A stretch of DNA of 64,000 nt from Kocuria sp. (lineage in GTDB: Bacteria; Actinomycetota; Actinomycetes; Actinomycetales; Micrococcaceae): assembly GCF_030538595.1 (NCBI RefSeq), contig NZ_JAUNTS010000011.1, positions 1 to 64,000 of the forward strand, given 5' to 3'. Of this stretch, positions 20,380 to 54,278 are shown piece after piece. The translations under genes and the position numbers were made by a program. Under the pieces are notes generated by a model. It did no database searches and had not been told where the DNA came from. It saw only the letters and a program-made list of their open reading frames with translations. Each line of letters starts with the position of its first letter. Position 1 is the first letter of the stretch.

Positions 20380-20394
20380 GGAGGGGGAGCAGGG

Positions 20395-24022: not shown

Positions 24023-24818
24023 CGTTGTCTTCCTCCCCCTCAAGAAGCCCAAATACAAAAACTTGCCCCCACAAAAGGGCGTCCGGTAATGCCAGACACC
24101 CGTGCCGACAGGCACGGTGTGAATGGATGTACGACGACGACCGCCCCTGCGCGTCATCCGCACCGCACCAGACATTCCTCATTCAGCCCCGTGGAATGCC
24201 GGACGGGTGCCCCCGGCGGACCCGGACGGGACCGGTGTTCACCAGACGGTGCAGTGCCTCACGGTTGACGCGTGGGAATTCCCAACGGCGTTGTGTACTT
24301 CATCCCCGTGTCAAAGAACTTGCGAAAGCGCAGTCAGAAGATCCCCATCCTCAGCGGTGCAGCCCTGATGTGCATGCACGCCTGTGCATTTCGATGCCCT
24401 TTGACTCCTCCATCCTAGGAGTTCAGAAGGACGATGGGCGTCCCCAGATGTGTCCAAATCATGGAAATGTGGGCCGAGTGGCGACAATCACAGCAGGTCA
24501 GCGGTCATGAGCGGTGGGCATGGTAGGGTATTGCGGTTGCCGAGGCGAGGGGACGTTGTTGCTCATGCACAACCTCCCGTGATCGACGAGGCTGGTTCTG
24601 ACCAACTTGAGGTTGATTGCCCAAACCCGGTCCCAAAAACCTGGCTGTAACCCTGCGCCGTAGCGCGGGAGGCCAAGGTGATGGGAGTCCGACGGGCGCT
24701 GCACATCGAGTGGTGGTGGGCCGGTCGCCTTGGGCCGGCGCAACATTCGTTGAAGAAACGCTCACCACGGTGAGCGCCCAGCACATCAGCACTGAGTAGA
24801 ACAAGGAGTCGAACCAGC
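24023..24818. other. 796-bp divergent intergenic region
   Basis: Lies between the sugar transferase (minus) and rplY (plus) and must hold both promoters. I see no RNA gene and no convincing coding frame. A small inverted repeat, ACTCCT/AGGAGT with a 7-base loop, occurs near 24402-24421. AAGGAG before 24819 is the rplY ribosome binding site. The length is unusual for this otherwise compact window. Confidence 0.5.
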
Positions 24819-35595: not shown

Positions 35596-36213
35596 TTGTG
35601 GTCCTCCTTGACGTGGGGTTTTTCTGAGAGGGCCCACCGGTCCTCCGATGTCTCATTCGCTGCCTGTTTCCACTGCGTCAGGTGTGAGGTGATGCAGCAG
35701 ATGGTGCAGAAGGTGAACTCGGGTGGGTGAGCGTCGTCGTTGGTCAAAACAGTTGAACGGCCAGGGGGCCGACTCTGGCCATCCTAGCGCCAGCCCCGCA
35801 CGCCACCCCGGCCCACTCCGGCACGGCCGCCCGCGCAGCCCTCGCCTAGCCCGCCACCCCCGCCGACTCCCCATTTGGCTGCCAGATCACCTCCTACATG
35901 GTGGGAGGTGGGCGTATTTCGGGGATCTCGACAATCAGGTGGGAACTGGCGGGAACTGGACGGGGATTGCAGCGCATGTGGTGAGACTCACGGGCGTGGA
36001 TCCGCGAATCGGCGGGCTGTGGGGTCAAGTGGGGTCAGTGCGGCGGACGTCGTTCCGTAGCGAATACATAGACTTTGGCACAGCGGGCACGAATGGGGAG
36101 TGCCCGGCAACCAGGACTGTGGCTGATGCCATCTAGCCTGGGCCGACAGTGAGCGTGGGGACGTTCATTGATCTGGGGCAAAGAACATGCGGGGAACACG
36201 ACGGGGGAATCAC
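35596..36213. other. ~620-bp divergent intergenic region
   Basis: Between the DUF2505 gene (minus) and the first gene of the polymer locus (plus). Several GC-rich frames cross it, but none carries a motif. A 63-residue Cys-containing frame on the minus strand (35747 to 35556) has GC-rich third positions but only a TTG start with no ribosome binding site. The promoter of the polymer locus must lie in its right half. Confidence 0.45.
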
Positions 36214-37368
36214 ATGGCATCCACGGCTTATGCCACCGACCGGGGGCAACAGCAGGGCCGGGGCTACCGCAAACGTGTGCTGCACGTGGTGGAAGCCTTT
36301 GGCGGTGGTGTTGCTGCGGCCGTTCGAGATTACGTTCGCGCGCTGCCCGAGTGTGAGCACCACTTGGTGTGTCGGCTGCGGCCTGAAGCGGACACCCTGG
36401 AGCCCGAATGGGTGGAGGAGTTCGCCTCCATTCACCGGATCGACGGCGGTCACATGGGAGCCACCAAATTTGTGCGGTCCACCATTCAGACCCTTCAACC
36501 GGATGTGGTTCACGCGCACAGCAGCTACGCCGGAGTGTGGGCCAGAACGGCGCTGATGGGAAACGGCACCATCCGCTGTGTCTACACCCCGCATGCCTGG
36601 GCTTTCGACCGTGAGGACAAATCTGCTGCGCAACGGCGAGCCTACCGCGCGGTGGAACGTAGTCTGAGCCGTCGCACGGATGTTCTGGCAGGTTGCTCCC
36701 GGGCGGAGAACCAAGAGGTGCGCAAGTGGGGTGCCAAGCTCAAAGCCGTCTATGTGCCCAATGTTGCCGCTGAAACTCAGCAATCCGTGACTCAAGCGCC
36801 CATCACTGACTGGTCCGAAAGCACCGGTCCGTTGATTGTTGGATCAGGGCGATTGACCATGCAGAAGGACCCGGAATGGTTTGCCCAGGTGGTTGCTGGA
36901 TTACGCGGCGCTGACCACAGCGTTCGCGCACTGTGGGTGGGCGGCGGGGATGATCACTTGCAGCAGCAGCTGGAGGCACAGGACATTGAGGTCACGGGTT
37001 GGGTGGACCCCGCCACGGTGCTGGCTCGGTTGGGGCAAGCCGATCTCTATGTGCACACCGCTCGCTGGGAAGGATTTCCCATCACCGTTCTGGAAGCTGC
37101 TCGTCTGGGACGTCCCATGGCGGTGCGCGGGATTCGGGCTTTTGACGACATCGGCATGCCATTGGTTTTGCACTCACCGGGGGACTTGGTGCAGCACTGG
37201 GAACGTCTCAAGGATGCCCAGGCCCGGGAAACAATCGTGGCGGAGCAAAACGCCGCGCTGTGGGAGAACACGCGTTCCATGCAGCGCGAACGCTTGGCCG
37301 AAGCCTACGGTTTGGAGCTGCTGCCCACCGGGTCCATCGGTATTGACCTGATCTCCCCGCGAGCCTGA
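36214..37368 (+). CDS. GT4-type glycosyltransferase
   Basis: Retaining GT-B-fold glycosyltransferase. The N-terminal half has R-V-L-H-V-V-E-A-F-G-G-G-V and D-V-V-H-A-H-S-S. The C-terminal half has G-S-G-R-L-T-M-Q-K-D-P and the E-x7-E donor motif E-G-F-P-I-T-V-L-E. It probably adds a sugar to a lipid-linked repeat unit on the cytoplasmic face. I chose the ATG at 36214 (384 residues) with GGGGGA upstream; an in-frame ATG at 36187 is also possible. The phosphopantetheinyl transferase gene starts 10 bp after the stop, so the two are co-transcribed. Confidence 0.87.
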   Translation: MASTAYATDRGQQQGRGYRKRVLHVVEAFGGGVAAAVRDYVRALPECEHHLVCRLRPEADTLEPEWVEEFASIHRIDGGHMGATKFVRSTIQTLQPDVVHAHSSYAGVWARTALMGNGTIRCVYTPHAWAFDREDKSAAQRRAYRAVERSLSRRTDVLAGCSRAENQEVRKWGAKLKAVYVPNVAAETQQSVTQAPITDWSESTGPLIVGSGRLTMQKDPEWFAQVVAGLRGADHSVRALWVGGGDDHLQQQLEAQDIEVTGWVDPATVLARLGQADLYVHTARWEGFPITVLEAARLGRPMAVRGIRAFDDIGMPLVLHSPGDLVQHWERLKDAQARETIVAEQNAALWENTRSMQRERLAEAYGLELLPTGSIGIDLISPRA

Positions 37369-37377
37369 ACGCACACC

Positions 37378-38022
37378 GTGAGCAGCTTCCAGCGGATGGA
37401 ATTGCCTCAACCACCGGAGGTTTTTGGGGTCGGATGTGACATCCAAGCGGTTCGAGCGGTGGAGCAGGCATGGCAAGCCCACGGACAACGGTATCTGCGC
37501 AAGATCATGGGCCACGGTGAGCTGACGAGCACAGGATGGGACGACGACGCAGCACTCCGCCCAGACTCAGTGTTCCACCCCGGTGCAGTGTTCCGCCCAG
37601 ATGCAGTGCTCCGCTCCAGGGCAGGTGAGGCCCGATCAAGCAGAGCCGAGCATCCGGCCCCCGCCGACTGTCCGACTCTCCCTGCTTTCCCGGAGATCGC
37701 GCAGCGGTTTGCCGTCAAAGAGGCAGTGGCCAAGGCGTTGCGGGTCAGCTCCCAGGAGTCGTTTCCCTGGAGTGCCATCGTGATCCGGGACCTTGATGCA
37801 CCCAAGGCGGGGTGGGTGCCGTCGCAGTATCACAGCGGTGGGGGAGAACCCGCGGTGGTGCCAAACACCAGGCGATGGTCGGTGAAGCTGACCGGACCCG
37901 CGGCCCGGGTGGCTCACGGTGCAGTGGTGCGTGCCTGGCTGGCCTTTTCCTGGAACATGCACCGGGACACAAATCTTTATGGTTGCGCAACAGTTATCGC
38001 TCTAACCGGTGCAAAATCATAG
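37378..38022 (+). CDS. AcpS-like 4'-phosphopantetheinyl transferase
   Basis: Predicted to convert the downstream apo-carrier protein to its holo form by moving phosphopantetheine from CoA to a serine. AcpS hallmarks: G-V-G-C-D-I with Asp21 and F-A-V-K-E-A-V-A-K-A-L with Lys114/Glu115, the Mg2+-binding pair. The C-terminal W-S-V-K-L-T-G motif also fits. At 214 residues it is longer than usual because about 50 residues (51-100) are inserted between the two motifs; they include a 4-copy 6-residue repeat. The GTG at 37378 is 10 bp from the glycosyltransferase stop. It probably serves this locus, not fatty acid synthesis. Confidence 0.8.
   Translation: MSSFQRMELPQPPEVFGVGCDIQAVRAVEQAWQAHGQRYLRKIMGHGELTSTGWDDDAALRPDSVFHPGAVFRPDAVLRSRAGEARSSRAEHPAPADCPTLPAFPEIAQRFAVKEAVAKALRVSSQESFPWSAIVIRDLDAPKAGWVPSQYHSGGGEPAVVPNTRRWSVKLTGPAARVAHGAVVRAWLAFSWNMHRDTNLYGCATVIALTGAKS
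37552..37623 (+). repeat. 18-bp in-frame tandem repeat in the phosphopantetheinyl transferase gene
   Basis: Four contiguous 18-bp units starting at 37552, 37570, 37588 and 37606 encode A/V-L/F-x-P/S-x-A/S hexapeptides. They lie in the insertion between the two catalytic motifs. Confidence 0.85.
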
Positions 38023-38226
38023 AATAAAGACCTCGGGCGCCGTCGTCTGCGTGCCCGAATTGCGGCGTCTTTTCCGCAGCCCTGGTACCGCCCTTGGGAG
38101 GCGGGTACTCAGGTGAATCTGTAAAAGATGCCTGATGGGAGGCGGCTGTGGGGGCCGACTCCAGATGGTGGGCTGCACCGTGCAGCTCATGGGGAATCCG
38201 GTGTGGGGCCGGGGAATTGGGGAATC

Positions 38227-38490
38227 GTGAGTCAGAACCGCGCGGAGATTGTGGAAACTGTCCGGGATGTGGTGGCCCAACACGCTCATTTGAGTGCGGA
38301 TGCAGCGGAACTCAGCGCTGCGGACAGCTTGTACTCGGCGGGGATGACGTCCCACGCCTCCGTGAACGTGATGCTGGGTGTGGAGGATGCCTTTGACATC
38401 GAGTTCCCGGAAGAGCTGTTGACCAAGGACACCTTTGAGTCCTTGGATTCCATTGTGCAGGCTGTGGCCACCTTGCAGGATGACCAGTGA
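38227..38490 (+). CDS. acyl/aminoacyl carrier protein
   Basis: 87-residue acidic four-helix carrier protein. The phosphopantetheine site is read as Ser42 in A-G-M-T-S-H-A-S-V, preceded by D-S-L-Y-S and followed by the acidic helix E-D-A-F-D-I-E-F-P-E. The GTG at 38227 is chosen because the carrier fold begins there; an open frame to 38128 adds unrelated residues. About 205 bp separate it from the transferase gene upstream, so it may have its own promoter. Its stop overlaps the dehydrogenase start. By context it carries an amino acid loaded by the ligase two genes downstream. Confidence 0.88.
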   Translation: MSQNRAEIVETVRDVVAQHAHLSADAAELSAADSLYSAGMTSHASVNVMLGVEDAFDIEFPEELLTKDTFESLDSIVQAVATLQDDQ

Positions 38491-39743
38491 TGAGTCTGCG
38501 CAGTGAGCTGGCGGGCACGGACAAAGTGATTGACCAACACGAAATTCCCACGGGAACCACGGTTGTCCGTGAGCTGCCGGAAGACACCGGGCGGTCCTGG
38601 GAAGAGCGCACAGCGGCTGTGGTGTCAGTGGCCCGCGAGCACGCTGCTCACGTTGACCTTCACGGCCGTTTTCCACACGAGGCCATTACCGCTTGCCGTG
38701 CACAGCGCATTTTTGGTGCTTTCATACCGCAGGCTCACGGCGGTGCGGGGGTTTCCATTGCACAGCTCTGTCATCTGGTGGAGGAACTGGGGCGCGTCTG
38801 CGGTTCCGCAGCGGCCATTGTGGCCATGCACTTCAGCCAGGAACTGTGCCTGGTCCGCCACGTGGATTTGGCCACCCGGTCACCGCTGAGCGAGCTCACC
38901 GAACGGGTGGCCACCCAGCAGTGGCTCCTGGCCTCCTCCACCACGGAGAAGAACATCGGTGGGGACACCAGGACCTCCTCCTGCGCAGTTCATGACAACG
39001 ACGACGCCACGGTCACCGTCCGCAAGTCAGCACCGGTGATCTCCTACGCGCGGTATGCGGATGCCATTTTGGTCACAGCGCGGCAGAACCCGCAGGCGCC
39101 GTCGTCCGAGCAGTCCTTGGTGGTGGCCCCCAAGGCGAATCTGGAATTGGACCGGACCACGGAGTGGGACGCCATGGGGTTGCGCGGCACCATGTCGGAG
39201 GGCTTCGAGCTGCAGGCCACGGTCCCTGAGCAGTACGTGTTGCCGGTGGACTTTGCCACCATCTCCGCGCAGACCATGCTGCCTGCCTCCCACACGCTGT
39301 GGGCTTCCTCCTGGTTGGGGATGGCCGCCAACGCAGGGGACGTGGCGCGCAAGTTTGTGCAGAAAAAGGCGCGGGCCACCCCGGGCCAGCTACCACCGGG
39401 AGGGCTGCGGCTGGCCGAATTGGAGATTGACCTTCAACGCATGACAGATGTGGTGCGGGCCAATGTGCAACGTTTTGAAGATCATGAGCATGACCCGGAG
39501 GCGCTGTCCTCCATGTCTTTTGCCATTGCCATGAACACCCTCAAAGTTTCCACCTCCGAATTGGTGCGCCAGATTGTGGGGGATGCCATGGTGATTGTGG
39601 GCATTGCTTCCTACTCCAACAACGGTCCGTTGTCCCTGGCCAGACCGCTGCGGGATGCCATGGGCCCGTCCCTGCAGGTCAACAATGACCGCATCTTGAA
39701 AAACACGGCCACGTTGCAAATGGTGTCCCGGGGGCGACGATGA
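38490..39743 (+). CDS. acyl-CoA-dehydrogenase-family flavoprotein, probably acting on carrier-bound substrate
   Basis: About 417 residues with the acyl-CoA dehydrogenase layout: N-terminal helical domain (I-F-G-A-F-I-P-Q-A-H-G-G-A-G-V), central beta domain (WDAMGLRGTMSEGF is the classic FAD/substrate loop), C-terminal helical domain. The start overlaps the carrier-protein stop (TGATG; a GTG three bases earlier also fits). The next gene again overlaps by four bases. Rhizobial amino acid:carrier-protein ligase genes are also reported next to acyl-CoA-dehydrogenase genes. Oxidation of an aminoacyl thioester is an inference. Confidence 0.87.
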   Translation: MSLRSELAGTDKVIDQHEIPTGTTVVRELPEDTGRSWEERTAAVVSVAREHAAHVDLHGRFPHEAITACRAQRIFGAFIPQAHGGAGVSIAQLCHLVEELGRVCGSAAAIVAMHFSQELCLVRHVDLATRSPLSELTERVATQQWLLASSTTEKNIGGDTRTSSCAVHDNDDATVTVRKSAPVISYARYADAILVTARQNPQAPSSEQSLVVAPKANLELDRTTEWDAMGLRGTMSEGFELQATVPEQYVLPVDFATISAQTMLPASHTLWASSWLGMAANAGDVARKFVQKKARATPGQLPPGGLRLAELEIDLQRMTDVVRANVQRFEDHEHDPEALSSMSFAIAMNTLKVSTSELVRQIVGDAMVIVGIASYSNNGPLSLARPLRDAMGPSLQVNNDRILKNTATLQMVSRGRR

Positions 39744-40690
39744 ATACTGAGCTCAACCACAAAGCCGCCGAACACACCTTTGAGGCTCAGCTGTTGGAGG
39801 CCCAATGGCTGCTTCCCACCTTGGGGACCGGGGTGACCGGAACCGGTGTGGCCATGGAAGCCGTGATCCGTGGTCTGGAGGCAGCGGCCCGGGAACGTGT
39901 GGACAGGGAATTGCCACGGCCGACCGAGCTGCATGCGGTGCGGTTTCCACCGGTCAACGGCCGCTCCATGCTGGAACGTACGGATTACGTGGCCAGCTTC
40001 CCGCAGCTGCTGGGCACGGTGGATGTTTTTGACGGGGACACCAAGGACCACCGCAGGCTGCTGGCGGACCGGGAAGCAGGACTTCCGTGGGACGGGCATA
40101 TGCACACCAGCGATTACGCGCTGGTCCCGGCGGCCTGCCACCCGCTCTATGCCTGGTTGGGGCAGCGTGAGGATGCCGTCTGCGATGGCACGGTGTGGGC
40201 CATCACGGGAGACTGCTTCCGCAACGAGCCCTCTCCAGATCCCATGCGCCTGGTGAGTTTTCGGATGTTGGAGTTTGTGCTGGTTGGTACCCCGGAGCAG
40301 GCCTTGGCGCACCGGACGGCCATGTTGGACCTGGGCGCTCGTCTGCTGACCGAACTGGGGTTGGAGGTGCACACCGAAGGGGCCAATGACCCGTTCTTTG
40401 GCCGGGCCGGAGTCATGTTGGCCCAGGGGCAGCGAGCTGCGGAACTGAAATTTGAAATCACCACTCAGATCTACCCGGGGCGCGACACCGCGATTTCCTC
40501 CGGCAATTACCACGAGGATCACTTTGGGGCTGAGTTCAACCTGCGCACCGCTGATGGAGCGGTGGCCCATTCGGCATGTTTTGGATTCGGTCTGGAACGC
40601 ATAGCGCTGTCCCTGGCGCGCACCCACGGAACAGAGCTGAACACCTGGCCCGCCTCCGTGCGTCAAACACTGGGACTGGGGGCTGTATGA
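39740..40690 (+). CDS. amino acid:[carrier protein] ligase (class II aaRS-like)
   Basis: 316-residue relative of the seryl-tRNA synthetase catalytic core without a tRNA-binding arm. Class II motif 2 is seen as GDCFRNE followed by R-M-L-E-F, and motif 3 as F-G-F-G-L-E-R-I-A. Cys133, Glu178 and Cys280 match in position the Cys/Glu/Cys zinc triad of rhizobial amino acid:carrier-protein ligases, which activate Gly or Ala and load it on the phosphopantetheine of a carrier protein. Family assignment is strong; the exact amino acid cannot be read. It overlaps both neighbours by four bases. Confidence 0.92.
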   Translation: MNTELNHKAAEHTFEAQLLEAQWLLPTLGTGVTGTGVAMEAVIRGLEAAARERVDRELPRPTELHAVRFPPVNGRSMLERTDYVASFPQLLGTVDVFDGDTKDHRRLLADREAGLPWDGHMHTSDYALVPAACHPLYAWLGQREDAVCDGTVWAITGDCFRNEPSPDPMRLVSFRMLEFVLVGTPEQALAHRTAMLDLGARLLTELGLEVHTEGANDPFFGRAGVMLAQGQRAAELKFEITTQIYPGRDTAISSGNYHEDHFGAEFNLRTADGAVAHSACFGFGLERIALSLARTHGTELNTWPASVRQTLGLGAV

Positions 40691-41658
40691 CGCCGGTGGT
40701 TCATCCGGGGTTGACCGTTGCGGGATTCACCCGGCATCCCCTCCACGCGGAGGACTCCCTGTGGTCCAACACCAACTGTTACTTGGACGTCTGGATCGAG
40801 TTGCTGCACGGTCTGGGCCGCAGCCCGGAACCGTTGTTCGCTGCAGCGGTGGCGGCTGAAACCCAGGTGGAGCAGTTTGAGTTCCTCAAAATCGACCATC
40901 GTGACCTGGAGGAAGTCCACGGCATCCGGGTGGGTGAGTACGACGTTTGGCAGCCCTTGGCCGAGCAGGTGCGCACTCAGATGGAGGCCGGCAATCTGAT
41001 GATCGTGGAGGCGGACGCCTATTGGCTGCCGGACACCCGTGGGATCTCCTACGGGACAGAACACACCAAAACCTCCATTGTGCCCCTCCACCTGAATCCG
41101 GCCGAGCAACACCTGGTCTACCTCCACAACGAAGGCCTGCACGAACTGCACGGACCCGATTTCGACTTTGTTCTGGGGGAACAGCGTGACCGGGGCATTG
41201 TGCCCGCACCCTATGTTGAACTGGTACGCCTGGACCGCCTGAGTGCCGTGTCCGACGACGAGGCCCGCGCCCATACCGTCCGTCTGCTGGGCCATCACGC
41301 CCGACGCACCGGAACCGAGAACCCCGCAGCGCACCTGATGGAAGTGCTGCGCTCGCGGTTCGATTGGCTTGCAGAGACCGGGATGGAGGGCTATCACGCA
41401 CTGTGCTTTGAAACCACAAGACAATTGGGAGTGGTGGCGCTGCTGGCCTCTGAGGCGGTGCGGTTCAGCCGAGTCGAACAACTCCAGCCCGCCGCGGACA
41501 GCTATGCCGCAGTCAGCAGGGAGGCCAAAGCGCTGCAGTTCCAATTGGCCCGCGTGGCCCGTGGCCGCAGGTCCGCTTCCCTGGAAACCGCCATGTCCAG
41601 CATCAGCGACCAGTGGGAGCAGGCCGCCACCACTGTGCGGGCGTGGGCCTTTTCATGA
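40687..41658 (+). CDS. DUF1839 family protein, candidate aminoacyl transferase
   Basis: 323 residues, ATG overlapping the ligase stop (ATGA). It matches DUF1839, a family found beside amino acid:carrier-protein ligases. Cys31 in N-T-N-C-Y-L-D-V-W-I starts a helix, and E-A-D-A-Y-W-L-P (Asp110), E-H-T-K-T-S (His126) and a VYLHNEG strand follow. This order resembles papain-like C39/BtrH-type proteins; BtrH moves an acyl group from a carrier protein to an aminoglycoside amine. I infer, without proof, that this protein passes the carrier-bound amino acid to a sugar or lipid acceptor. Confidence 0.85.
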   Translation: MTPVVHPGLTVAGFTRHPLHAEDSLWSNTNCYLDVWIELLHGLGRSPEPLFAAAVAAETQVEQFEFLKIDHRDLEEVHGIRVGEYDVWQPLAEQVRTQMEAGNLMIVEADAYWLPDTRGISYGTEHTKTSIVPLHLNPAEQHLVYLHNEGLHELHGPDFDFVLGEQRDRGIVPAPYVELVRLDRLSAVSDDEARAHTVRLLGHHARRTGTENPAAHLMEVLRSRFDWLAETGMEGYHALCFETTRQLGVVALLASEAVRFSRVEQLQPAADSYAAVSREAKALQFQLARVARGRRSASLETAMSSISDQWEQAATTVRAWAFS

Positions 41659-44603
41659 TGGAGACATTGCAGTGGCGGTTGAGCCGTACCCCTCCCGGTC
41701 AGGTGGCCTGGGCCAATGATCTGGTGTGGGACGGCACGGTGGCGCAGGGCGTGCAGACGGACCACCTTTCCGCGGTAGCTGCACCGCATGGCCAACCGGG
41801 GACAACTGGTGGCCCCGGCCCGGTGCCGTTGCCTCGCTGGGGTGCGCTGGTCGACGTCGTTCAGGACGCCGCAGTGAGCCCGTCCATCCCCGCGCAGGTG
41901 CCCGGTACAGCAGCTGGTGCTGTACTGGCCGCAGTGGAGGATTCCGCTGTGCCGCAGGACGCGGAATCCACCGGGGAGCTTCTGCGGCACCTTGACGATT
42001 TTGACTGGTGGTGGATCACCACCGTGGATTGTGCCGAGTTCGCGGGCGTCGCTGAAGACGACGGCGGTCGGCAGTTGAGATTGCGGCTGCGGGGAATCGC
42101 CACGGTCAGTGAGGTCTTTTGGGACGGCCAACGGGTGGGGCATTCGGTCAGCGGGCTGGACGACGTGGTGGTGGACCTACCGGTGACTGCAACCACCCAC
42201 GAATTGGCCCTGGTGTGCCGGGCTCCTGGACTGGTGCCCGTACCCAAAAAGCCGCGTCCGCGGTGGCGCTCCACCCTGGTGGGCGACTCCTCCTTAAGGT
42301 GGCGGCGGACGCCGCTGATCGGTCGGATTCCGTGGGCCGGGACCTACCCCGTGGTGGGGCCGTGGGGTGAAGCAGCGCTGGAGCCGGTGCCCAAGCATGG
42401 TCTGGAGGTGGTGCGCACCCACACAGCGGTGGAGTGGGGTCACCGCCAGACGTCCGCGCACCCAGGTGATGGTGACGTGCACGGAACGGTTCATGTGTGG
42501 GTGCGGGCCCAGGAACCGGTGACCGTGCGGCTGAACTGCGCCGATGCTGCGGTGCAGCACAGCCTGATGCCAGGTGACCATCATTTGGTCTTGGAGGTCA
42601 GTCAGCCCGCACTGTGGTGGCCTGCCACCCACGGCGATCCGGTGTTGCACACGCTGACGGTTTCCGCGGCGTTCCCGGCGGCTGGGGCCGCTGCCTTCCG
42701 CACCGTGTATCAGGCTGAGGTGGGGTTCAGACACCTCCGAGCGGATACGGCCGATGGTGGATTTGCCCTGGTGGTGAACGGGTGCAGGATTTTTGCTCGC
42801 GGAGCGGTCTGGACTCCGCCTGATTCGGTCAACCTGTGGACTGAGGCTGAGCGTGTTGAGCGCGGCGTGCTGGCCATGAGGATGGCCGGCGCCAACGTGC
42901 TGCGGATTTCCGGCACGCACGCGTGGGAGACGGACGCGTTTTACCAGGCCTGTGACCGGTATGGGGTGCTGGTCTGGCAGGACGCCATGTTGGCCACCCT
43001 GGACCCGCCCTCTGAGGACGGCTGGGTGGAGCTGATCACCCGGGAGTTGAAAACATGGCTTCCGCGCCTGGGGGCTCACCCCAGCGTTGCCGTGATTTCC
43101 GGTGGCAACGAGGTTTTGCAGCAGCCCGTGCTCTACGGCCGCAACCTCAGCGATGCCCCCATTCCGGTCATTGAGAAAGTGCTGCCCGAGCTGTGCGATG
43201 AGCTGATCCCGCACTGCGTCCACGTGGCGTCCAGCCCCAGCGGTGGCAACCCACCCACCAGGCCGGATACGGGTATTTCCCACTGGTTCGGCGTGGGCGC
43301 GTACCGGCGGCCCCTGACAGACACTCGCGTGAGCGGCGTGCGGTTTGCCGCTGAAGCGCTTGCTTTTGGTGTGCCCCCCGCACCGTCTGAGATCACCGCC
43401 GCCTTTGGATCGCCCACGGCCGATCACAACGACGACGCCCGCGCGGCCTGGTCCGGGTCCACCGCACGTGACCCGGGGGCCACGTGGGACTTTGAGCAGA
43501 CCACCGCCCATTACGCCAGGCGCTGGTTGGAACCGGGATGCGAGGCGGACACGGGTGCAGCCGGTGCTGAGGCCGCCACCCACGGCGGTCCTGCTTCCAG
43601 CGGTGGCGACTTCCGGCCCGGTGTCTGGGCGCACCTTTCACGATCTGAACAGCTGGCGGCTGAACGCACAGCTGCTGGACACGCCGTTGAACACACCATG
43701 ACTGACTTACGCCGCGGTGCCTCCGGTTGCGACGGCGTGGTGGTACTGGCCAGTCGTGATTTTTGCGCGGGAGCCGGCTGGGGCCTGTTGGATCACACCG
43801 GGCGTCCCAAAGCCACCTGGTATGCCATGCGCCGGGCCTGTGCTGACACTGCGGTTCGCCTGGTGGATGAGGGTCTTTCAGGGCTTCATATTCACGTCTT
43901 CCATGACCCGTTGTGGCCGCTGACAGGCATGATGTATGTCAAGACCTTCACCCGGCACAATGCCGCCGGCCCATCGGGGCAGGTTCGCGTTGAGGTGGAC
44001 GGAGGCGCAGAAGCCGTTTGGAATGTGGAGCAGATTCTGGGGGGATTCTTGGATCTGGACCACGCATGGGGATTCGGTCAGCGGCAGTGGGAAGCCGTGA
44101 GCGTGGAGTTGGTGCCGGATGAACCTTCGGGTGGTTTGGCTGAACCTCTTGGGGATGCTGTTGAAGCCTTGGACGGGGTCGCTGAATCCTTGCGCGGTTC
44201 CACAGGTGACGGGCAGGCAGCCCAGCGGTGGGTTCGGTCTCTGCGGGATGTGAAGTTACTCGGTGGTGGGCACCGAGACGCCTTGGTTGACCTGGAGTGG
44301 GGAATGCGAATCAGCGGTGCGTTGGTCCCGGGGGTACCGGAAGCAGTTTCAGCTGGGGAGCTTGACGGGGTCTGCGGCACCGAAGCAGCCGGGGGAGCGC
44401 GGGTGCACACGGTGGGACTGCCTGGAACCCCCGCAGCGCGCGGGGTCAGTGTGGACGTGGGAGCTGGATGGGTCCCGCAGGACGATGTGATGACTTTTTG
44501 TCCGGGAGACCAGCGGATCCTCACCGCGGTCCCCATCAGCGATTGGCCGCAGTGCTCGGAGAGTACGCACGGGAGGAATCGGGGAGAGAGAAGTAATGAT
44601 TAA
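41655..44603 (+). CDS. glycoside hydrolase family 2 (beta-mannosidase-like) protein
   Basis: 982 residues with no signal peptide, so cytoplasmic. GH2 layout: beta-sandwich domains first (about 1-360), then a TIM barrel with A-R-G-A-V-W-T-P-P and R-I-S-G-T-H. The acid/base region is S-G-G-N-E (Glu486) and a nucleophile candidate is R-F-A-A-E-A-L (Glu567, weaker match). The barrel has a long insertion of low similarity at 575-660. Start at 41655 overlaps the DUF1839 stop; the next start lies inside its own 3' end. It may trim or remodel a mannose-containing repeat unit, or act as a transglycosidase. Confidence 0.8.
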   Translation: MMETLQWRLSRTPPGQVAWANDLVWDGTVAQGVQTDHLSAVAAPHGQPGTTGGPGPVPLPRWGALVDVVQDAAVSPSIPAQVPGTAAGAVLAAVEDSAVPQDAESTGELLRHLDDFDWWWITTVDCAEFAGVAEDDGGRQLRLRLRGIATVSEVFWDGQRVGHSVSGLDDVVVDLPVTATTHELALVCRAPGLVPVPKKPRPRWRSTLVGDSSLRWRRTPLIGRIPWAGTYPVVGPWGEAALEPVPKHGLEVVRTHTAVEWGHRQTSAHPGDGDVHGTVHVWVRAQEPVTVRLNCADAAVQHSLMPGDHHLVLEVSQPALWWPATHGDPVLHTLTVSAAFPAAGAAAFRTVYQAEVGFRHLRADTADGGFALVVNGCRIFARGAVWTPPDSVNLWTEAERVERGVLAMRMAGANVLRISGTHAWETDAFYQACDRYGVLVWQDAMLATLDPPSEDGWVELITRELKTWLPRLGAHPSVAVISGGNEVLQQPVLYGRNLSDAPIPVIEKVLPELCDELIPHCVHVASSPSGGNPPTRPDTGISHWFGVGAYRRPLTDTRVSGVRFAAEALAFGVPPAPSEITAAFGSPTADHNDDARAAWSGSTARDPGATWDFEQTTAHYARRWLEPGCEADTGAAGAEAATHGGPASSGGDFRPGVWAHLSRSEQLAAERTAAGHAVEHTMTDLRRGASGCDGVVVLASRDFCAGAGWGLLDHTGRPKATWYAMRRACADTAVRLVDEGLSGLHIHVFHDPLWPLTGMMYVKTFTRHNAAGPSGQVRVEVDGGAEAVWNVEQILGGFLDLDHAWGFGQRQWEAVSVELVPDEPSGGLAEPLGDAVEALDGVAESLRGSTGDGQAAQRWVRSLRDVKLLGGGHRDALVDLEWGMRISGALVPGVPEAVSAGELDGVCGTEAAGGARVHTVGLPGTPAARGVSVDVGAGWVPQDDVMTFCPGDQRILTAVPISDWPQCSESTHGRNRGERSND

Positions 44604-46422
44604 AGGAGAACCAACGTGGTTCGGCACTGGATCCTCTGCCGTGCTGGGCTGGGTTCACACTCCACCGGAGGCCACCAGCCGCGGCATTGTGGTGGTGGCC
44701 GCCCCGGCGGGCCGGGAACTGCTGCTGTCCACCTTGACGGTGCGCGGACTGTGCATTGTGCTGGCCCAGGCCGGCTTCACGGCAGTGCGATTCGGTTGGC
44801 GCGGCAGCCTGGATTCCCAACCTTTGAGAAGTCAGGACAACGCAGTGGCGGCCTGGCAGGAGGATCTGCGGACCGTTGTGGCCACCACGCAGGAGATGCT
44901 GGGAGCCCACGATCTGCCGGTGCACGCCGTGGGTTACCGCACCGGTGCCGCCGTTGTGGGCACCATGCTGGAGGAGTTCCAGACAGTTGTCTCCTGGGAA
45001 CCTGTTGCGGGCAAGACCTTTGTGCGTCAGTGGTCGCGGCTGCGGCACACGGTGGCTGCGCATGTTCCGGACACTGCCGGGCTGGTGGACCTGCTGGGCA
45101 TGGCACTGACCCCTGAACAGGCTGAGCAGTTCAGCCAGTTGGGCACACCCGAACCCACCACGGCTGCCACGGTCTCACCGTCCACAGCGCCGCAGGCTGA
45201 GGGGGAGGTACCCGCCACAACCGTGGTGGAGATCAAAGAGACCGACAAACGGCGGGCCAAGGCCATGTTCGGCGTGGAGCCCTTTGACGTCCGCCTGCAT
45301 CACGATGTCTTTGACCGAGTTCGGGACGCTTTACCTGCGGACATGCCACGCGCCGTCGTCGGTGAATTGCCCACCGTGCTGCAGAACTCTTGGACGGAGA
45401 ACGGCGGTGTGGTGCTGCACGAACGGTTGGTTGAGGTGGGGCGCGACCACCGCGTGGGAGTGGTGACTTGGCGCGAAGGCGACGGCCAGCCCGGGGCTTT
45501 TGCCGGAGTCCAAGGGCTGTTCGTCTCCGGAGGTGGGCCGGACGGCCGTTACGGGGGAGGGGAATGGCCACTGATCGCCAGGGATTTGGCGCTGGATGGC
45601 GTGGTGACCCTGCGTGTGGATCGCCCGTTGGTGGGTGATTCCACGCCGGTGGATGCCGTACGGGCCACCAACAGTTACACCCGCCGCAGTGCCGTGAGTT
45701 TTGTGGAATCCGTGGACTGGTTGAAAGCCAGTGGTTGCCAACCCGTCAGTGCAGCCCTGTTGTGTTCCTCTGCGTGGGCTGCCAGCTTGGGCGAAATCCA
45801 GGCAACTCCCACGGGTGCCTCCTGCGTGGTGCTGATCGGGCATTCCGAATGGAAAATGTCCGAAGACCTGTGGGCGGACGTGCGGGAGACCTACAACGCG
45901 GATGCCGCGCGGGATGCGCCGGCTTCCACCAACCGTGCCGCTCGCAGTGCACCGGCGCCCGCTGTGCCACAGCGCAGCATCCGCAAGGGGCCTGTGGGAA
46001 TACTGGATCGCGTGCGGTGGGCCCGGGACGTGGTGCAGGCCGGTGGGTTCGGCTTGTTGAAGTCCATGCTGCGCGATCAGACCGTGTTGGCGGTGCGGAC
46101 CTGGATGCCGTACCCGCTGTGGAAACTGGCCGGCCGCCGGGCCCTCATGGAAACCCCCGAGCGGGTCTTGGAACCCATGAGCAGCCGAGCTCGCGTGGTG
46201 GTGCTCAACGGGCCGGATGATCTTCCACGTTGGAAGGCCACCCGGGCGGACCGCGCGGTGGAGAGGCTGGCTGAGGCCGGTCTGCCCATTCGTTCCATCG
46301 AGTCCGACCGCCTGGACCATTCGGTGATCACAGCCACCGGATGCCGCACCGTGTTGGACACGCTGCGCACCGAACTGCTGGGATCGGGGAACCGGCCCGC
46401 GTCGGGTTCATCGGATTCCTGA
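44596..46422 (+). CDS. double-domain alpha/beta-hydrolase-fold protein, nucleophile Ser replaced (1)
   Basis: 608 residues made of two alpha/beta-hydrolase-like halves. In the N-half the nucleophile elbow reads G113-Y-R115-T-G117, so the serine of G-x-S-x-G is arginine. In the C-half the corresponding strand is A-L-L-C390-S-S-A-W, with Cys. This pattern resembles the exosortase-associated hydrolases 2 and 1 (TIGR03101/TIGR03100) of exopolysaccharide loci, here fused; that link is my inference. The start lies 8 bp inside the GH2 gene. A paralogue follows 15 bp downstream. Confidence 0.72.
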   Translation: MIKGEPTWFGTGSSAVLGWVHTPPEATSRGIVVVAAPAGRELLLSTLTVRGLCIVLAQAGFTAVRFGWRGSLDSQPLRSQDNAVAAWQEDLRTVVATTQEMLGAHDLPVHAVGYRTGAAVVGTMLEEFQTVVSWEPVAGKTFVRQWSRLRHTVAAHVPDTAGLVDLLGMALTPEQAEQFSQLGTPEPTTAATVSPSTAPQAEGEVPATTVVEIKETDKRRAKAMFGVEPFDVRLHHDVFDRVRDALPADMPRAVVGELPTVLQNSWTENGGVVLHERLVEVGRDHRVGVVTWREGDGQPGAFAGVQGLFVSGGGPDGRYGGGEWPLIARDLALDGVVTLRVDRPLVGDSTPVDAVRATNSYTRRSAVSFVESVDWLKASGCQPVSAALLCSSAWAASLGEIQATPTGASCVVLIGHSEWKMSEDLWADVRETYNADAARDAPASTNRAARSAPAPAVPQRSIRKGPVGILDRVRWARDVVQAGGFGLLKSMLRDQTVLAVRTWMPYPLWKLAGRRALMETPERVLEPMSSRARVVVLNGPDDLPRWKATRADRAVERLAEAGLPIRSIESDRLDHSVITATGCRTVLDTLRTELLGSGNRPASGSSDS

Positions 46423-46437
46423 TGGCGGGTTCCTGAG

Positions 46438-48621
46438 ATGAACACTGCCACCAGCACCGGGCCCATTCCCACCTGGGTGCGCGTGCACAACAATTCCACC
46501 CCCGCATCAGCTCCGCAGAGCGCCGGTGATGCGGGCAGTGATGTTGCCGCAGACGCCGATAATTTCTCCACCATCTCCTCCGCGGCCGCGGTGCACGGGG
46601 TGCTGGAAGCTCCCTCCGGGGCGCGGGTGCGTTGCGCGGTTCTTCTGGTGGCCCCGGTGGGGCGTGAACAAGTGGTGAGTGCACGCGCCATGGCGGCCCT
46701 CAGCCATGAGTTGGCCATCCGCGGTGCCTTGGTGCTGCGGATCACACTGCGGGGCGTGGCAGACTCCCACCCTGCACCGGAACAGCTCTCCACGGCATGG
46801 GCCGCCGATGTCCGGGCCGGACTGGCGGAGCTGGCTCACCGTGCCCCTGCGGTGCCCTTGCACGCGGTGGGCTTACGCATTGGTGCGGCAGTTCTGGCGG
46901 AGGCACTGCACGGCATGGAGCCTGTGGATGACCGGGAGCCTGTGGATGACCGGGAACCTGCGGTGACCGTGGCCCGGTGCATTTTCTGGGAGCCGGTGGG
47001 TGGTAGGGCCTACTTACGAAAAGCGGCGGCATTGCGCAGCATGAGCCTGGCGCGTCCCGTGGTGGCGGCGTCTGTAGGCGTTGAGACCGCCGGAGAGCTC
47101 TACACCCCGCAGCAGGCGGCCCAGATGAAACTTCTCAAAGCCCCCACGGCGGGTGGGCTGTCGGATGGTTGGGTCATCCGAGTGGAGCAAGACCGGGCCG
47201 TGGCGGAGCTGCTGTACGAGGTCTCCAGCGAGTTTGCCAGAGTCCCCCGCGCCAGTGTTCGGGCCATGGCGCGCGAGCTGACCGAGCCGCAATCGCGGGT
47301 TGATGCAGTGCCGCCGGAAACTCCTCCCACCACCCCTGCGGCGGTTACGCCGCATGCTGACGGGGGCACGGCAATACTGCACGCCTACGGGAGCCCTGAA
47401 GCCGGTGGGAGCACTAAAACAGTCCCCGCGAACATCACCCCGGTGACCACCATGACGCTGGAGCACGGTGGGGTCACAGTGAGGGAACGGTTGATCTCCA
47501 CGGATGACGGAAGCCCGGGCATTCTGGTGACCCCTGAGTGTGACACCGAGCCTGAGAGGGCAGAGGCGGGTACGGCGTCGCCTGCTGTCCTGATGGTTTC
47601 CGCGGCAGCCGAACCCATGGACGGGCCCACGGGTTTGTGGACCACCGCGGCGCGGGACTTGGCCGCTGCCGGGCTCACGGTGCTGCGCACAGAGCGTCCC
47701 GGATGCGGGATTTTGACCGAGCCCCTGCAGGACGAACCACCCGTGCCGTACCAGCCGGAAGCCATCACCGCAGTGGCCCAGCATGCCGAGTGGTTGGCCC
47801 GCCTCACCGGAAAGCCCGTGACGGGAGTGGGGCTGTGTGTGGGCTCCTGGCTGCTGCTGCGCGCTGGTCGGTCGGCCCACTTGTCCCGTGTGGTGGCTTT
47901 CAACAACATCGCGTGGCGGAGATCCACTGCCTACTACCAGCGGGTTTACACGCAGATCGCCGGATGGGACGGAGCACCGCCGGCACTGTCCAACGCAGAG
48001 CAGGACCACCACGCCGAGTCCGCTGCCCCAGGCCATGCTCCCTCCGGAGCCTCACGCCTGAGCACCGTGGGCACTGCAGCACGACGACGCCTCAAAGCCA
48101 CCCTGTCCCGGAGCAAAGACTTCCTGGAGATGCGAGCGCCTGCACCGGTGTGGCATGCCCTGGGCAGGACCGGTCTGGTGGATGCGCCCTCTTTGGTTCT
48201 GGGGGATGCCAACCTGCCTCCCACCGTGGAGCTGGTGCAGGGCAAGGAGGACATGGATCGGTTCCAGCGGCTCAACGGGACGTGGGCAATGGGGAGGGTG
48301 CGGCGTCGTCGTGGAGGTGAAAAAGCAGGCCAGCGGGGGTTTTGGCGCGCCGCGGAGCATGAGATTCTGCTCACCCGGGACAACTCAACATCAGCTGCGC
48401 CCCAGGTGAGAGGCATAAGACTGCACTCTGTCCCCGAACTTGACCACGGGCTCTTGAGTGCCGCGGGGCGGGTGCAGGTGCGTAAGATCCTCCTCGAACT
48501 ACTTGTAGGAGCGGATGTGACCATTGGGGAGGTCCTCCGCCACCGCCCCGGTCCGCACACCACGGCTGACCGTCATACGTCTCAGTCCATTGGGGACCCA
48601 TCAGAGGCAAAAATCGCTTGA
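46438..48621 (+). CDS. double-domain alpha/beta-hydrolase-fold protein, nucleophile Ser replaced (2)
   Basis: 727 residues, paralogue of the preceding gene with a ~60-residue N-terminal extension and a longer linker. N-half elbow: G145-L-R147-I-G149, again arginine for serine. C-half elbow: V-G-L-C467-V-G-S-W, with cysteine and intact flanking glycines. A tandem E-P-V-D-D-R repeat interrupts residues ~161-174. It likely works with its neighbour, either as acyl-handling enzymes with a Cys nucleophile in the C-half or as non-catalytic binding proteins. Substrate unknown; conserved in the operon ahead of the flippase. Confidence 0.72.
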   Translation: MNTATSTGPIPTWVRVHNNSTPASAPQSAGDAGSDVAADADNFSTISSAAAVHGVLEAPSGARVRCAVLLVAPVGREQVVSARAMAALSHELAIRGALVLRITLRGVADSHPAPEQLSTAWAADVRAGLAELAHRAPAVPLHAVGLRIGAAVLAEALHGMEPVDDREPVDDREPAVTVARCIFWEPVGGRAYLRKAAALRSMSLARPVVAASVGVETAGELYTPQQAAQMKLLKAPTAGGLSDGWVIRVEQDRAVAELLYEVSSEFARVPRASVRAMARELTEPQSRVDAVPPETPPTTPAAVTPHADGGTAILHAYGSPEAGGSTKTVPANITPVTTMTLEHGGVTVRERLISTDDGSPGILVTPECDTEPERAEAGTASPAVLMVSAAAEPMDGPTGLWTTAARDLAAAGLTVLRTERPGCGILTEPLQDEPPVPYQPEAITAVAQHAEWLARLTGKPVTGVGLCVGSWLLLRAGRSAHLSRVVAFNNIAWRRSTAYYQRVYTQIAGWDGAPPALSNAEQDHHAESAAPGHAPSGASRLSTVGTAARRRLKATLSRSKDFLEMRAPAPVWHALGRTGLVDAPSLVLGDANLPPTVELVQGKEDMDRFQRLNGTWAMGRVRRRRGGEKAGQRGFWRAAEHEILLTRDNSTSAAPQVRGIRLHSVPELDHGLLSAAGRVQVRKILLELLVGADVTIGEVLRHRPGPHTTADRHTSQSIGDPSEAKIA
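46918..46953 (+). repeat. 18-bp in-frame duplication
   Basis: Two perfect copies of an 18-bp unit encoding E-P-V-D-D-R (46918-46935 and 46936-46953), followed by a decayed third start (GAACCTGCG). In frame in the second hydrolase-fold gene. Confidence 0.9.
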
Positions 48622-48700
48622 CCCCTTTGAGGGCTCCACCGGGCCCCACCGAGTTTTGGCGGGCCGAAGCCCGTGAGATGGCAGGAGGGTCTTTTCCAAC

Positions 48701-50323
48701 ATGGCTGGATCGGATGCGCGGACACCGGGGCAAGAGCGCGGTAGGCACCGTCAGGAGAAGGACAATGCCACGGGGGCGGACACCAGCGCCTCCAGGTTGG
48801 GGCAGAACATCCTGTGGAACTACCTGTCCGGCTTCACCTCAATTTTTGGTCTCCTGCTGCTCTATCCGCTGGCCGTGTCCATTGTGGGTGCGGGTTCCTA
48901 CGGGCTGTGGGTGCTTGCCATCGGTGCCATCCAGATGCTGACCATGACCGACTTCGGTTTGGGCGCAGGCATTGTCAGAACTCTGACGGGTATCCCTGAC
49001 AACGCCGACTACCAGCGTGAACGCCGCATGTTCGTGACCGCTGCGCTGCTGGTGTTCCTGATCCTGGCCACGGTGCTCACCGTGATTTACACGGCGGTCT
49101 TCCCGCTCTACCTGGGGGCCGTGAGCATTCCTGAAGAAGATCAGGCGATCTTGTGGCCCATGACCATTCTGGCCGCGGTGACCCTGTTCATTTCACTGGT
49201 GGGCCGGGGAATGAACTCCGTGCTGTGGGGACTGAACCGCCCGGACATTGAACGCAAAGCTGCTGTGATTGCCATTCTTGCCCGCGCTGCCGGCTACGGC
49301 CTGGTGGTGCTCACAGACACCGGCCTCCTGGGCATTGTGGTGGTGGAATGCGTTTCCCTCATGCTGCCGCCCCTGGTGTGCATGGTGGCTGTGGCTCAGC
49401 GGTTCCGAGCCCCTGTGTTCGGCCCCGGGCTGTGGCGCGATCACGGCAAACCCCTGATCAAAATATCCTCTGTCATGTCCATTGGCGCGCTGTCCCAACT
49501 GGGCATCTACCAGTTGCCGCTGTTCCTGGTGGGTCCCACGTTGGGCTTGCACGCGACCACAGCCTTCGGCGCCCTGATGCGCGTGTACCAGTCCTGCCGC
49601 TTGGTGGTGTCTTGGATTGCCCTGCCCTATGGCTACCCGCTGCGCATAGCCACCCCGGACAAGGCAGCGGGAATCTTGAAAAATTGCCTGACCCTGACTT
49701 TTGGCATGGGTCTGCTGATGGGAGCTGCCCTGGCTGCCATTCCCACGGAGTTGATGACCGCCTGGATGGGCAATGACTTTGCTTTCGCCGCCGTGGGCCT
49801 GTCCATGCTGGCCTTTGGCATCATGGCGGAAGCCATCACCCAGCCCGCAAACCTTGTGATGAATCTGCGCGGCTCCGCCATGCGCGCCTCCATCCTGAGC
49901 CTGACGGTGCTGGTGCTGACACTGCCTGCGGTGTGGTTTGCCACCTTCACGGACAGCATCACCGTGGTGGCACTGGCCACCGTGCTGCCCAGCTTCCTGA
50001 TGTCCGGTGTCCAGATGTATCTGGCCAACAAGGATGTCTCCTACGGTATCCAGCGCCGCGATCTTGCCGTGTGGGCCGGAATGGCAGGCGGTGCTGTGCT
50101 CTACGCAGGATTCGCACTTCTGATTGCGCACTTCCTGCCGACCTGGCCCACCATCTTGCTGGTGGGCGCTGGGCTGGCCGTCATGGCCTTCCGCATGATC
50201 AAGCTGGTCCGGGCCGACGGCGCGGTGGTTGCTCAAATGAGCGAAGAAAACTCCGAGGCGCTGGTGGCCGAACGGCAGGCGGACGCCACTGCTCAAGACC
50301 CCGAAGAACCCGGACGGGCCTAA
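48701..50323 (+). CDS. Wzx-like polysaccharide flippase
   Basis: 540 residues with about 14 membrane helices, of the MOP/MATE polysaccharide exporter superfamily. It begins with a ~35-residue charged tail, then the typical first helix (N-Y-L-S-G-F-T-S-I-F-G-L-L-L-L-Y-P) and D-F-G-L-G-A-G-I. It would turn the lipid-linked repeat unit across the membrane for polymerisation. The ATG at 48701 is preceded by AGGAGGG at 11 bases. It is the last plus-strand gene of the locus, 79 bp after the second hydrolase gene. Confidence 0.88.
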   Translation: MAGSDARTPGQERGRHRQEKDNATGADTSASRLGQNILWNYLSGFTSIFGLLLLYPLAVSIVGAGSYGLWVLAIGAIQMLTMTDFGLGAGIVRTLTGIPDNADYQRERRMFVTAALLVFLILATVLTVIYTAVFPLYLGAVSIPEEDQAILWPMTILAAVTLFISLVGRGMNSVLWGLNRPDIERKAAVIAILARAAGYGLVVLTDTGLLGIVVVECVSLMLPPLVCMVAVAQRFRAPVFGPGLWRDHGKPLIKISSVMSIGALSQLGIYQLPLFLVGPTLGLHATTAFGALMRVYQSCRLVVSWIALPYGYPLRIATPDKAAGILKNCLTLTFGMGLLMGAALAAIPTELMTAWMGNDFAFAAVGLSMLAFGIMAEAITQPANLVMNLRGSAMRASILSLTVLVLTLPAVWFATFTDSITVVALATVLPSFLMSGVQMYLANKDVSYGIQRRDLAVWAGMAGGAVLYAGFALLIAHFLPTWPTILLVGAGLAVMAFRMIKLVRADGAVVAQMSEENSEALVAERQADATAQDPEEPGRA

Positions 50324-50460: not shown

Positions 50461-51540
50461 TCAGGAGTAGGCCAGATCTCGGTAAATGGCCATGTACCGC
50501 TCGGTGGCACGGTTGATGTCAAAGTCCCGGTGGGACAGCTCCCATGACGCCAGACGGAGCGCCTCAACCTGTTCGGGGCTGCGAGTCAGGAACCAATCCA
50601 CCGCTGCGGCCAAGGCATCTGGGTTGCGCGGGGCCACGGCAAGGTGCTCGTCCACTGTCATGAATGCGGCATCTCCGGCCCGTGTGGTGATGACGGGCAG
50701 GCCCTCACTGATGGCTTCAAGCCCCGCCATGGGCAGAGCCTCGTTGTAGCTGGCAAAGATCAGCGCGGCAGCGGTGCGCAGACGTTGCCGAACATCTGTG
50801 ATGGTGCCGGCAAACTCGACCACACCCTCCAAGCCCAGTTCTTGCCGCCAGCCGGTCAACTGCGTGTTGGACTCATCCACGCCGTTTCCGGCGCAGAGTA
50901 GGCGTGCCTTGGGGTGTTTGGCATGCACCCGCGCCATGGTTTCCAGGAGATTTCGGTGGTCCTTGGGCGGTGCAAAGCGGGCCAGGTGCAAGAGCTGCTG
51001 CCCGCCCGGATTGGGGGAGGGGGCCTGCGTGACAGTTGTGCCGTTGAAAATCACCGGCATCTTCTCCGGTGGGAACGTGTACCCGAACTCAGCGGTGATG
51101 TTGCGGGCCGACGGCGAACAGGCCACCATCTGATCCATCCGGAAGGACATTTTCCCGGCAGCTTTCCAGGCGGCGTGGGCCACCTTGGAGGAGGAGGCAT
51201 CCTCACTCGCGTGCTGCGTGGAGATTCGCGGCCGCCCGTGCGGGGTCAAGGCGTTGACCAGATCTGATTGGTGCAAATGGGAGTGCACCACGTCAATCTT
51301 GTGTCGGCGCACCAACCGCAGCAGATGAGCCACAGCACGGGCGGGGAGAACTTCCCTGCGGCCCATACCCACGTAATCAACGGATGTGGCGGCTGCCTCC
51401 AGACGATCACTCAGCCCACCGCGGCCCAGTAGCACCAGGATGCGGACCTCGTCATGGGGGCCGCGCCGCTGTGCCAAAGCCTCAATCAAGGTTTGTGCCC
51501 CGCCGGTGTCGGCGTCGTTGACCACGTGCAGAATACGCAT
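50461..51540 (-). CDS. GT4-type glycosyltransferase
   Basis: 359 residues, GT-B fold. N-terminal R-I-L-H-V-V-N-D-A-D-T-G-G-A-Q acceptor loop; C-terminal donor domain with HLARFAPPKDH, and the E-x7-E region E-A-L-P-M-A-G-L-E-A-I-S-E-G-L-P-V. The ATG at 51540 follows GGAGAAG and abuts the stop of the upstream polymerase gene. Last gene of a four-gene minus-strand operon (Wzz-like, GT, Wzy-like, GT). Confidence 0.9.
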   Translation of the reverse strand: MRILHVVNDADTGGAQTLIEALAQRRGPHDEVRILVLLGRGGLSDRLEAAATSVDYVGMGRREVLPARAVAHLLRLVRRHKIDVVHSHLHQSDLVNALTPHGRPRISTQHASEDASSSKVAHAAWKAAGKMSFRMDQMVACSPSARNITAEFGYTFPPEKMPVIFNGTTVTQAPSPNPGGQQLLHLARFAPPKDHRNLLETMARVHAKHPKARLLCAGNGVDESNTQLTGWRQELGLEGVVEFAGTITDVRQRLRTAAALIFASYNEALPMAGLEAISEGLPVITTRAGDAAFMTVDEHLAVAPRNPDALAAAVDWFLTRSPEQVEALRLASWELSHRDFDINRATERYMAIYRDLAYS

Positions 51541-51541
51541 G

Positions 51542-52969: not shown

Positions 52970-52970
52970 C

Positions 52971-54239: not shown

Positions 54240-54278
54240 CACAGACTCCTTGCCCATAGCTCGTGAGGGTTTCCGGCC

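Follow-up and report, generated by a model that had tools for sequence, protein, structure and literature searches.

What does an enzyme that loads amino acids onto carrier proteins (CPs) do in an operon that ends with a candidate polysaccharide flippase? Relatives of aminoacyl-tRNA synthetases (aaRSs) that load CPs have solved structures, and a 2022 review gives Gly, Ala or Ser as their substrates and treats the purpose of the attachment as still unknown (PMC9437257). We analyzed a 64,000-nucleotide stretch (hereafter the window) of a Kocuria sp. genome of 3.14 Mb, which is contig 22 of that genome (NZ_JAUNTS010000011.1, positions 1 to 64,000; assembly GCF_030538595.1). Within it lies an operon of nine plus-strand genes (37378–50323), for which an earlier note, made from the sequence alone, had proposed that an amino acid is readied for transfer onto a polysaccharide. 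The gene content given there was borne out: a phosphopantetheinyl transferase (PPTase), a CP, a flavin enzyme with the acyl-CoA dehydrogenase fold (ACAD), an amino acid:CP ligase homolog, a DUF1839 protein, a GH2 protein, two hydrolase-fold proteins (HydA and HydB, together Hyd) and a flippase candidate. We lean toward a reading in which the operon encodes a CP-based route that couples an amino acid, or its oxidized form, to one of the sugars of a surface glycan. That a glycan is the recipient is likely; which amino acid, acceptor and product are involved, and in which direction the transfer runs, we infer. As comparison of sequences established, the candidate catalytic residues of the PPTase, CP, ligase, GH2 protein, DUF1839 and Hyd are conserved, and the genes travel together.

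A conserved, putative loading module

The identities claimed for the ligase, CP and PPTase agreed with their family and structure matches. Over residues 61–313, the catalytic core, the ligase matched the solved Bll0957-type ligase (PDB 4h2w; E 4.1e-59). Because its 329.5 bits to NF005479 fell under the equivalog cut-off of 357, the threshold for naming, we refer to it as an amino acid:CP ligase homolog and not as a certified equivalog. The Cys133/Glu178/Cys280 triad pointed out in the earlier note, which we take to be metal ligands, was found intact, each residue being kept in 42/42 homologs.

The CP scored 99.4 bits to NF005480 (curated cut-off 72; the next best of the nine NCBIfam matches listed scored 26.5) and 25 bits to Pfam PP-binding (cut-off 20.8), and its attachment residue, Ser42, was kept in all 38 homologs. 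The PPTase scored 27.4 bits to PF01648 (cut-off 25), or 20 bits, under the cut-off, in a six-frame search; Asp21, Lys114 and Glu115 were each kept in 23/23 homologs. Three further PPTase matches lie elsewhere in the host genome, which, together with the NF005480 score of the CP, ruled out a housekeeping fatty-acid or catabolic operon. In four genomes (loci L006, L010, L044 and L051) a PPTase homolog and the CP share one open frame, which would be a natural fusion tying both functions together.

Two observations concern the same genes. The window PPTase (214 amino acids) carries, at about 37500–37700, a stretch between two conserved motifs that is missing from shorter relatives such as that of L004 (142 amino acids). 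In two lineages a PF00756 esterase gene adjoins the CP or the PPTase–CP fusion (L009, 7447–8538; L044, 12165–13301).

The cassette recurs across phyla

A search for the gene order in other actinobacteria, by one ligase scan of named genomes, recovered CP–ACAD–ligase–DUF1839–GH2 in each of seven loci (four from Kocuria and the others from a Renibacterium metagenome-assembled genome, Psychromicrobium and Metallococcus), six of them with Hyd genes. Because 7/7 loci share this order, it is not due to chance. A homolog of the GT4 glycosyltransferase (GT) gene upstream of the operon precedes the cassette also in the Renibacterium genome and Psychromicrobium. The same order was found on proteobacterial plasmids of Rhizobium, Azospirillum, Shinella, Caballeronia, Phyllobacterium, Burkholderia, Mycetohabitans and A. 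lipoferum, which ruled out a purely Kocuria island.

We then considered 39 loci picked by their ligase, many of them close kin, from which four duplicates of the same genomes had been left out beforehand. The five genes stood together in 29 loci (counted by hand) of Actinomycetota and Proteobacteria, in the same order and orientation in 27; of the two exceptions, L065 has a Hyd gene between the ligase and DUF1839 genes and L053 has DUF1839–GH2 on the opposite strand. The ACAD gene adjoined the CP gene in 29/29 full cassettes, and a Hyd gene lay within the fetched stretch in 27/39 loci. Five loci, situated in actinobacterial polysaccharide loci and not fully annotated, held a reduced set comprising a PglC-type initiating sugar transferase, ligase, CP, PPTase and Hyd, without ACAD, DUF1839 or GH2. 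As for the remainder, L051 lacked DUF1839 and GH2 only, L064 and L066 were cut by contig ends, and two had the ligase alone. Conservation counts omit the CP of L049, the GH2 proteins of L005, L041, L052, L055 and L064 (stops, split hits or cut genes) and a partial Hyd of L045.

In a tree of 42 ligases, some with long branches, the seven proteobacterial ones formed one clade (100/99). The reduced loci fell in two places, one nested beside full cassettes, and the accessory genes were therefore lost or gained more than once. The ligase is patchily spread, occurring in 17/27 genomes of the genus, 21/295 of the family and, with a threshold of E 1e-20, 28/345 of the class (220 bits or more were reached in 16 of the 28); DUF1839 was found in 3/396 genomes of the phylum. 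Across the 345 genomes the ligase (at least 220 bits) occurred in 16 and Hyd in 17, with both in 14, a count that leaves out 12 genomes with ligase scores of at most 172.2 bits, none with Hyd, and whose Fisher test treats genomes as independent, several being close kin. Three genomes had Hyd only; in one of them, G739, the contig that carries it measures 11.6 kb and matched none of CP, PPTase and ligase.

Some loci hold more than the cassette. L052 (genome G165) and L056 (G927) each have two diverged copies of the ligase, separated by about 10 kb and with mfd and an L25 gene between them; one copy belongs to a full cassette and the other is accompanied by a CP and a PPTase only. In Rhizobium NLR16a (L083, 2104–4930), the cassette is directly preceded by genes with the annotations elongation factor P, EpmA and lysine-2,3-aminomutase-like protein; this is a predicted second aaRS-like aminoacylation system next door.

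DUF1839 as a candidate transferase

One candidate to move the loaded residue onward is the DUF1839 protein, whose Cys31 and His147 were kept in 31/31 homologs and His126 in 30/31. Its model shares a fold with CcbD, CtaG and AziU3 over nearly the whole length at 12–16% identity, and the modeled fold is that of enzymes joining CP-bound amino acids to amines, one such amine being an amino sugar. Sequence searches gave little more: Pfam at E 0.01 returned DUF1839 and a weak DUF6397 match only, so that the protein is not a BtrH_N member by sequence, and its profile retrieved only designed coiled coils among PDB sequences. With the lincosamide condensation enzymes CcbD and LmbD it has in common the fold and a conserved Cys and His, and CcbD transfers a CP-bound aminoacyl group to an amino sugar; DUF1839 differs from these enzymes in sequence family, and the ligase of the Kocuria operon is aaRS-like. 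From its modeled fold, DUF1839 would thus work like CcbD while standing outside the CcbD sequence family.

An earlier study describes DUF1839 as papain-like in fold, with a C-(T/S)-H site, and guesses from gene context that it processes glycans of the cell wall in a way that depends on acyl-CoA (PMC10318531). To this we add the match to CcbD-type amide synthases, the cassette with a CP and its ligase, and the reduced loci.

Unusual features of the flavin enzyme, GH2 protein and Hyd

The N and C domains of the ACAD scored above the Pfam acyl-CoA dehydrogenase cut-offs and the M domain below. The column that aligns with the usual C-terminal Glu, presumably the catalytic base in ordinary members, holds Val or Ile in 33/33 homologs, and three places past it stands an Asp or Glu in 33/33. 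The replacement ruled out a standard acyl-CoA dehydrogenase; because the usual base is replaced, the enzyme probably does not carry out ordinary alpha,beta-dehydrogenation, and the acidic residue three places on may be a shifted base. The GH2 protein scored below its Pfam cut-off but matched a solved beta-mannosidase; Glu486 and Glu567, aligned with the catalytic positions, were kept in 26/26 homologs, and the protein has no transmembrane (TM)-like segments.

HydA and HydB are paralogs, each modeled or aligned as two alpha/beta-hydrolase domains. Their elbows differ, HydA having LLCSS, without the usual glycines, and HydB GLCVGS. Among 47 Hyd proteins (39 in the conservation count and 8 more), Cys390 and Asp574-His575 were kept in 39/39 of those counted. 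The elbow residue of the C-terminal domain was Cys in 39/39, which ruled out an ordinary serine hydrolase, and that of the N-terminal domain was Arg in 31/39, Ser in 5, Gly in 2 and Glu in 1, so that a few members may have a second, serine-type site there. HydB gave no useful match to PDB sequences; matches of Hyd were to esterase-like folds, including a thioesterase and a Cys-type hydrolase.

Hyd also resembles the 'hydrolases' among the exosortase-A-associated genes for acyl activation, TIGR03098–TIGR03101. In six of seven Hyd proteins of other loci (L033, L035, L072, L080, L082 and L083, not L058) the N-terminal half matched TIGR03101 and the C-terminal half TIGR03100, all below the curated cut-offs. 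HydB scored 30.8 bits to TIGR03100 (cut-off 168.45) and 41.5 bits to TIGR03101 (cut-off 202.75). The Kocuria system differs in that HydA and HydB of the window match both models best in the N-terminal half and in that its ligase is aaRS-like. In Shinella, Hyd sits inside an exopolysaccharide locus, together with a CP and enzymes that resemble TIGR03098 and TIGR03099, and in L073 it occurs with P450, PhyH and nonribosomal peptide synthetase-like genes. On the Caballeronia NK8 plasmid (L084, 16145–16994 and 27189–29055), runs of 258-bp hypothetical genes lie near Hyd, some repeats sharing a protein accession.

These enzymes raise the possibility that the pathway makes an unusual acyl precursor, with the amino acid loaded, oxidized to an imine, keto or dehydro form and then cleaved off by Hyd, which would act as a thioesterase, to be used elsewhere. 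The constant pairing of the ACAD and CP genes and the esterase-like matches of Hyd are in its favor, as is the observation that bll0957 (the solved ligase) and bll0958, which has the locus tag after it and is an acyl-CoA dehydrogenase, were both raised in a phaR mutant (PMC10888616). The five reduced loci, however, keep Hyd without an ACAD, and DUF1839 has an amide-synthase fold, and we regard such a precursor as quite improbable.

Glycan genes lie near many cassettes, and not near others

The attachment to a surface glycan that we prefer draws on what surrounds the ligase. A PglC-type (Bac_transf) gene lay within 21 kb of it in 16/34 ligase genomes, representing 6/11 genera, and only 0.6–1.7 kb away in three genomes of one genus; one of these three loci, L058, was scanned and also has GT4 genes and a Wzy_C protein. 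In a second Kocuria group (L042) the genes near the cassette include those for a GT4, an epimerase and a GDP-mannose 4,6-dehydratase, and in Rhizobium NLR16a GT4 genes flank Hyd immediately behind the cassette. Two facts weigh against this reading: 18/34 ligase genomes, some with short contigs, had no PglC-type gene within 21 kb, and several proteobacterial plasmid cassettes had no annotated adjoining glycan gene, in gene tables that are incomplete. The proposal that the amino acid is readied for transfer to a polysaccharide is thus supported in part, by the initiating transferases and the DUF1839 fold, and weakened by the loci that lack such neighbors.

Because of those 18 genomes and the proteobacterial copies away from glycan genes, a small aminoacyl-sugar is a serious rival: the cassette could make a diffusible, lincosamide-like aminoacyl-amino-sugar, a signal or antibiotic, and the polysaccharide genes of Kocuria would be mere neighbors or suppliers of sugars. 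The plasmid cassettes in question are those of rhizobia, Azospirillum, Caballeronia and Phyllobacterium; CcbD, CtaG and AziU3 all belong to natural-product pathways, and the company that Hyd keeps in L073 points the same way. Arguing for a polymer instead are the recurrence of PglC-type genes in six genera, the reduced loci inside clusters of GT genes (one with Wzy_C), the exopolysaccharide locus around the Shinella Hyd, and the fact that the Kocuria operon has a GT and a flippase candidate. On balance we consider the small product unlikely.

The description of the Kocuria region as a Wzx/Wzy locus stood in part. Such a locus would contain GT genes, which lie near the operon, and an initiating sugar transferase, which lies at a distance of 17 kb from the ligase; the Wzx and Wzy labels are less firm, the flippase candidate scoring 25.1 bits to NF041503 (WZX_like), far under the cut-off of 300, with 9 TM-like segments, and the Wzy candidate, with 8, having zero Pfam matches at E 0.05. 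Among the literature matches listed, from a search that most subscription journals fall outside, no paper links an amino acid:CP ligase to a polysaccharide, and a text search of a paper on an Actinoplanes exopolysaccharide (PMC13390465) did not find the term 'carrier protein'.

Layout of the operon and its surroundings

Overlaps of 1–8 bp had been described for most junctions of the operon, and we found them at 5/8 (1, 4, 4, 4 and 8 bp); the other three have gaps, of 204 bp (PPTase–CP), 15 bp (HydA–HydB) and 79 bp (HydB–flippase candidate). The closest homologs of the window ligase are those of Kocuria sp. S28M_Sa_16 (81%) and K. subflava (83%).

Table 1. Genes of the Kocuria operon and nearby polysaccharide genes (window positions).
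Feature	Position	Strand	Match or remark
PglC/WbaP-type initiating sugar transferase (Bac_transf)	22277..24175	-	PF02397 5.7e-69; 17 kb from ligase
GT4 glycosyltransferase	36187..37368	+	directly upstream of operon; Pfam Glyco_trans_4_4 2e-18
AcpS-type PPTase	37378..38022	+	PF01648
CP, 87 amino acids	38227..38490	+	NF005480; attachment Ser42 in GMTS
ACAD, flavin enzyme with acyl-CoA dehydrogenase fold	38490..39743	+	PF02771, PF00441
Amino acid:CP ligase homolog, class II aaRS-like	39740..40690	+	PDB 4h2w, NF005479
DUF1839, predicted CP-dependent aminoacyl:amine transferase	40687..41658	+	Pfam DUF1839 294 bits
GH2 beta-mannosidase-like protein	41655..44603	+	PDB 2vqu E 1.6e-25
HydA, tandem alpha/beta-hydrolase fold	44596..46422	+	Cys390, Asp542, His575 in C-terminal domain
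HydB, HydA paralog	46438..48621	+	Cys elbow GLCVGS; weak TIGR03101/TIGR03100
Wzx-like flippase candidate	48701..50323	+	9 TM-like segments; weak NF041503
GT4, convergent to operon	50461-51621	-	Pfam
Wzy candidate, convergent to operon	51542-53095	-	8 TM-like segments
GT, convergent to operon	52971-54257	-	Pfam

Elsewhere in the window there is a tandem pair of large regulators of the LuxR type that carry ATPase domains (28192–33632), with homologs upstream in three other Kocuria loci (L004–L006). Near the PglC-type gene, two neighboring genes on the minus strand have S-layer homology domains (19065–22170), one with an added CAP domain and one with GH25.

Discussion

The enzymes would act in the following order. 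The PPTase would arm the CP, and the aaRS-like ligase would adenylate a small amino acid and join it to the CP through a thioester bond. In the full version of the cassette, the ACAD-fold enzyme would oxidize the CP-bound residue. DUF1839, by a CcbD-like Cys-His mechanism, would then pass the residue to an amino group as an amide, most simply that of an amino sugar, and Hyd, with its invariant Cys, would be a second CP-dependent acyltransferase; in the reduced loci, as far as they are annotated, Hyd is the only candidate transferase identified. Our guess for the GH2 protein is that it serves to trim or recycle a cytosolic glycoside. Export and polymerization of the decorated unit would follow wherever the locus includes a flippase.

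CP-based transfer of amino acids to surface molecules is established for lipid A in the Alm system and for teichoic acid in the Dlt system. D-alanylation by Dlt and glycylation by AlmEFG likewise combine a ligase, a small CP and a transferase to decorate a surface molecule, but use another ligase superfamily and other candidate transferases; matches to the AMP-binding and MBOAT families (DltA- and DltB-type) were absent from the 40 window ORFs scanned, to which the search of the genome was confined. The Kocuria system would thus work like Dlt or Alm in its logic and be classed under neither. The precedent also lends some weight to a rival in which DUF1839 or Hyd aminoacylates an amine of a protein or lipid, in parallel to lipid A glycylation. 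Set against it, the neighborhood of the cassette repeatedly includes genes for glycosyltransferases, GH2 proteins and nucleotide sugars, and no recurring gene for a lipid or protein target was noticed, in loci that were not searched systematically for one; we hold this to be very improbable.

With the rhizobial amino acid:CP ligases (Bll0957 and relatives) the system shares a homologous core, the Cys/Glu/Cys site, the cognate CP family NF005480 and an adjoining acyl-CoA dehydrogenase gene. It departs from them in that the Kocuria ligase lies below the NF005479 equivalog cut-off and stands beside a PPTase, two Hyd paralogs and a flippase candidate. Possible, if rather doubtful in its full breadth, is a cross-phylum, modular acylation of surface glycans from CPs, in which Hyd would be the common transferase served by ligases of three or more types (aaRS-like, exosortase-A and amino-acid adenylation), the amino acid:CP ligases would make aminoacyl-sugars, and the exosortase-A 'hydrolases' would be acyltransferases as well.

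A fixed cassette that spans phyla and includes a partner with the CcbD fold makes the role of the amino acid:CP ligases testable. If the glycan reading is true, bacteria would have a further way, alongside Dlt and Alm, of altering their surfaces, DUF1839 would gain a function, and there would be a hint at the role of the exosortase-A-associated 'hydrolases'.

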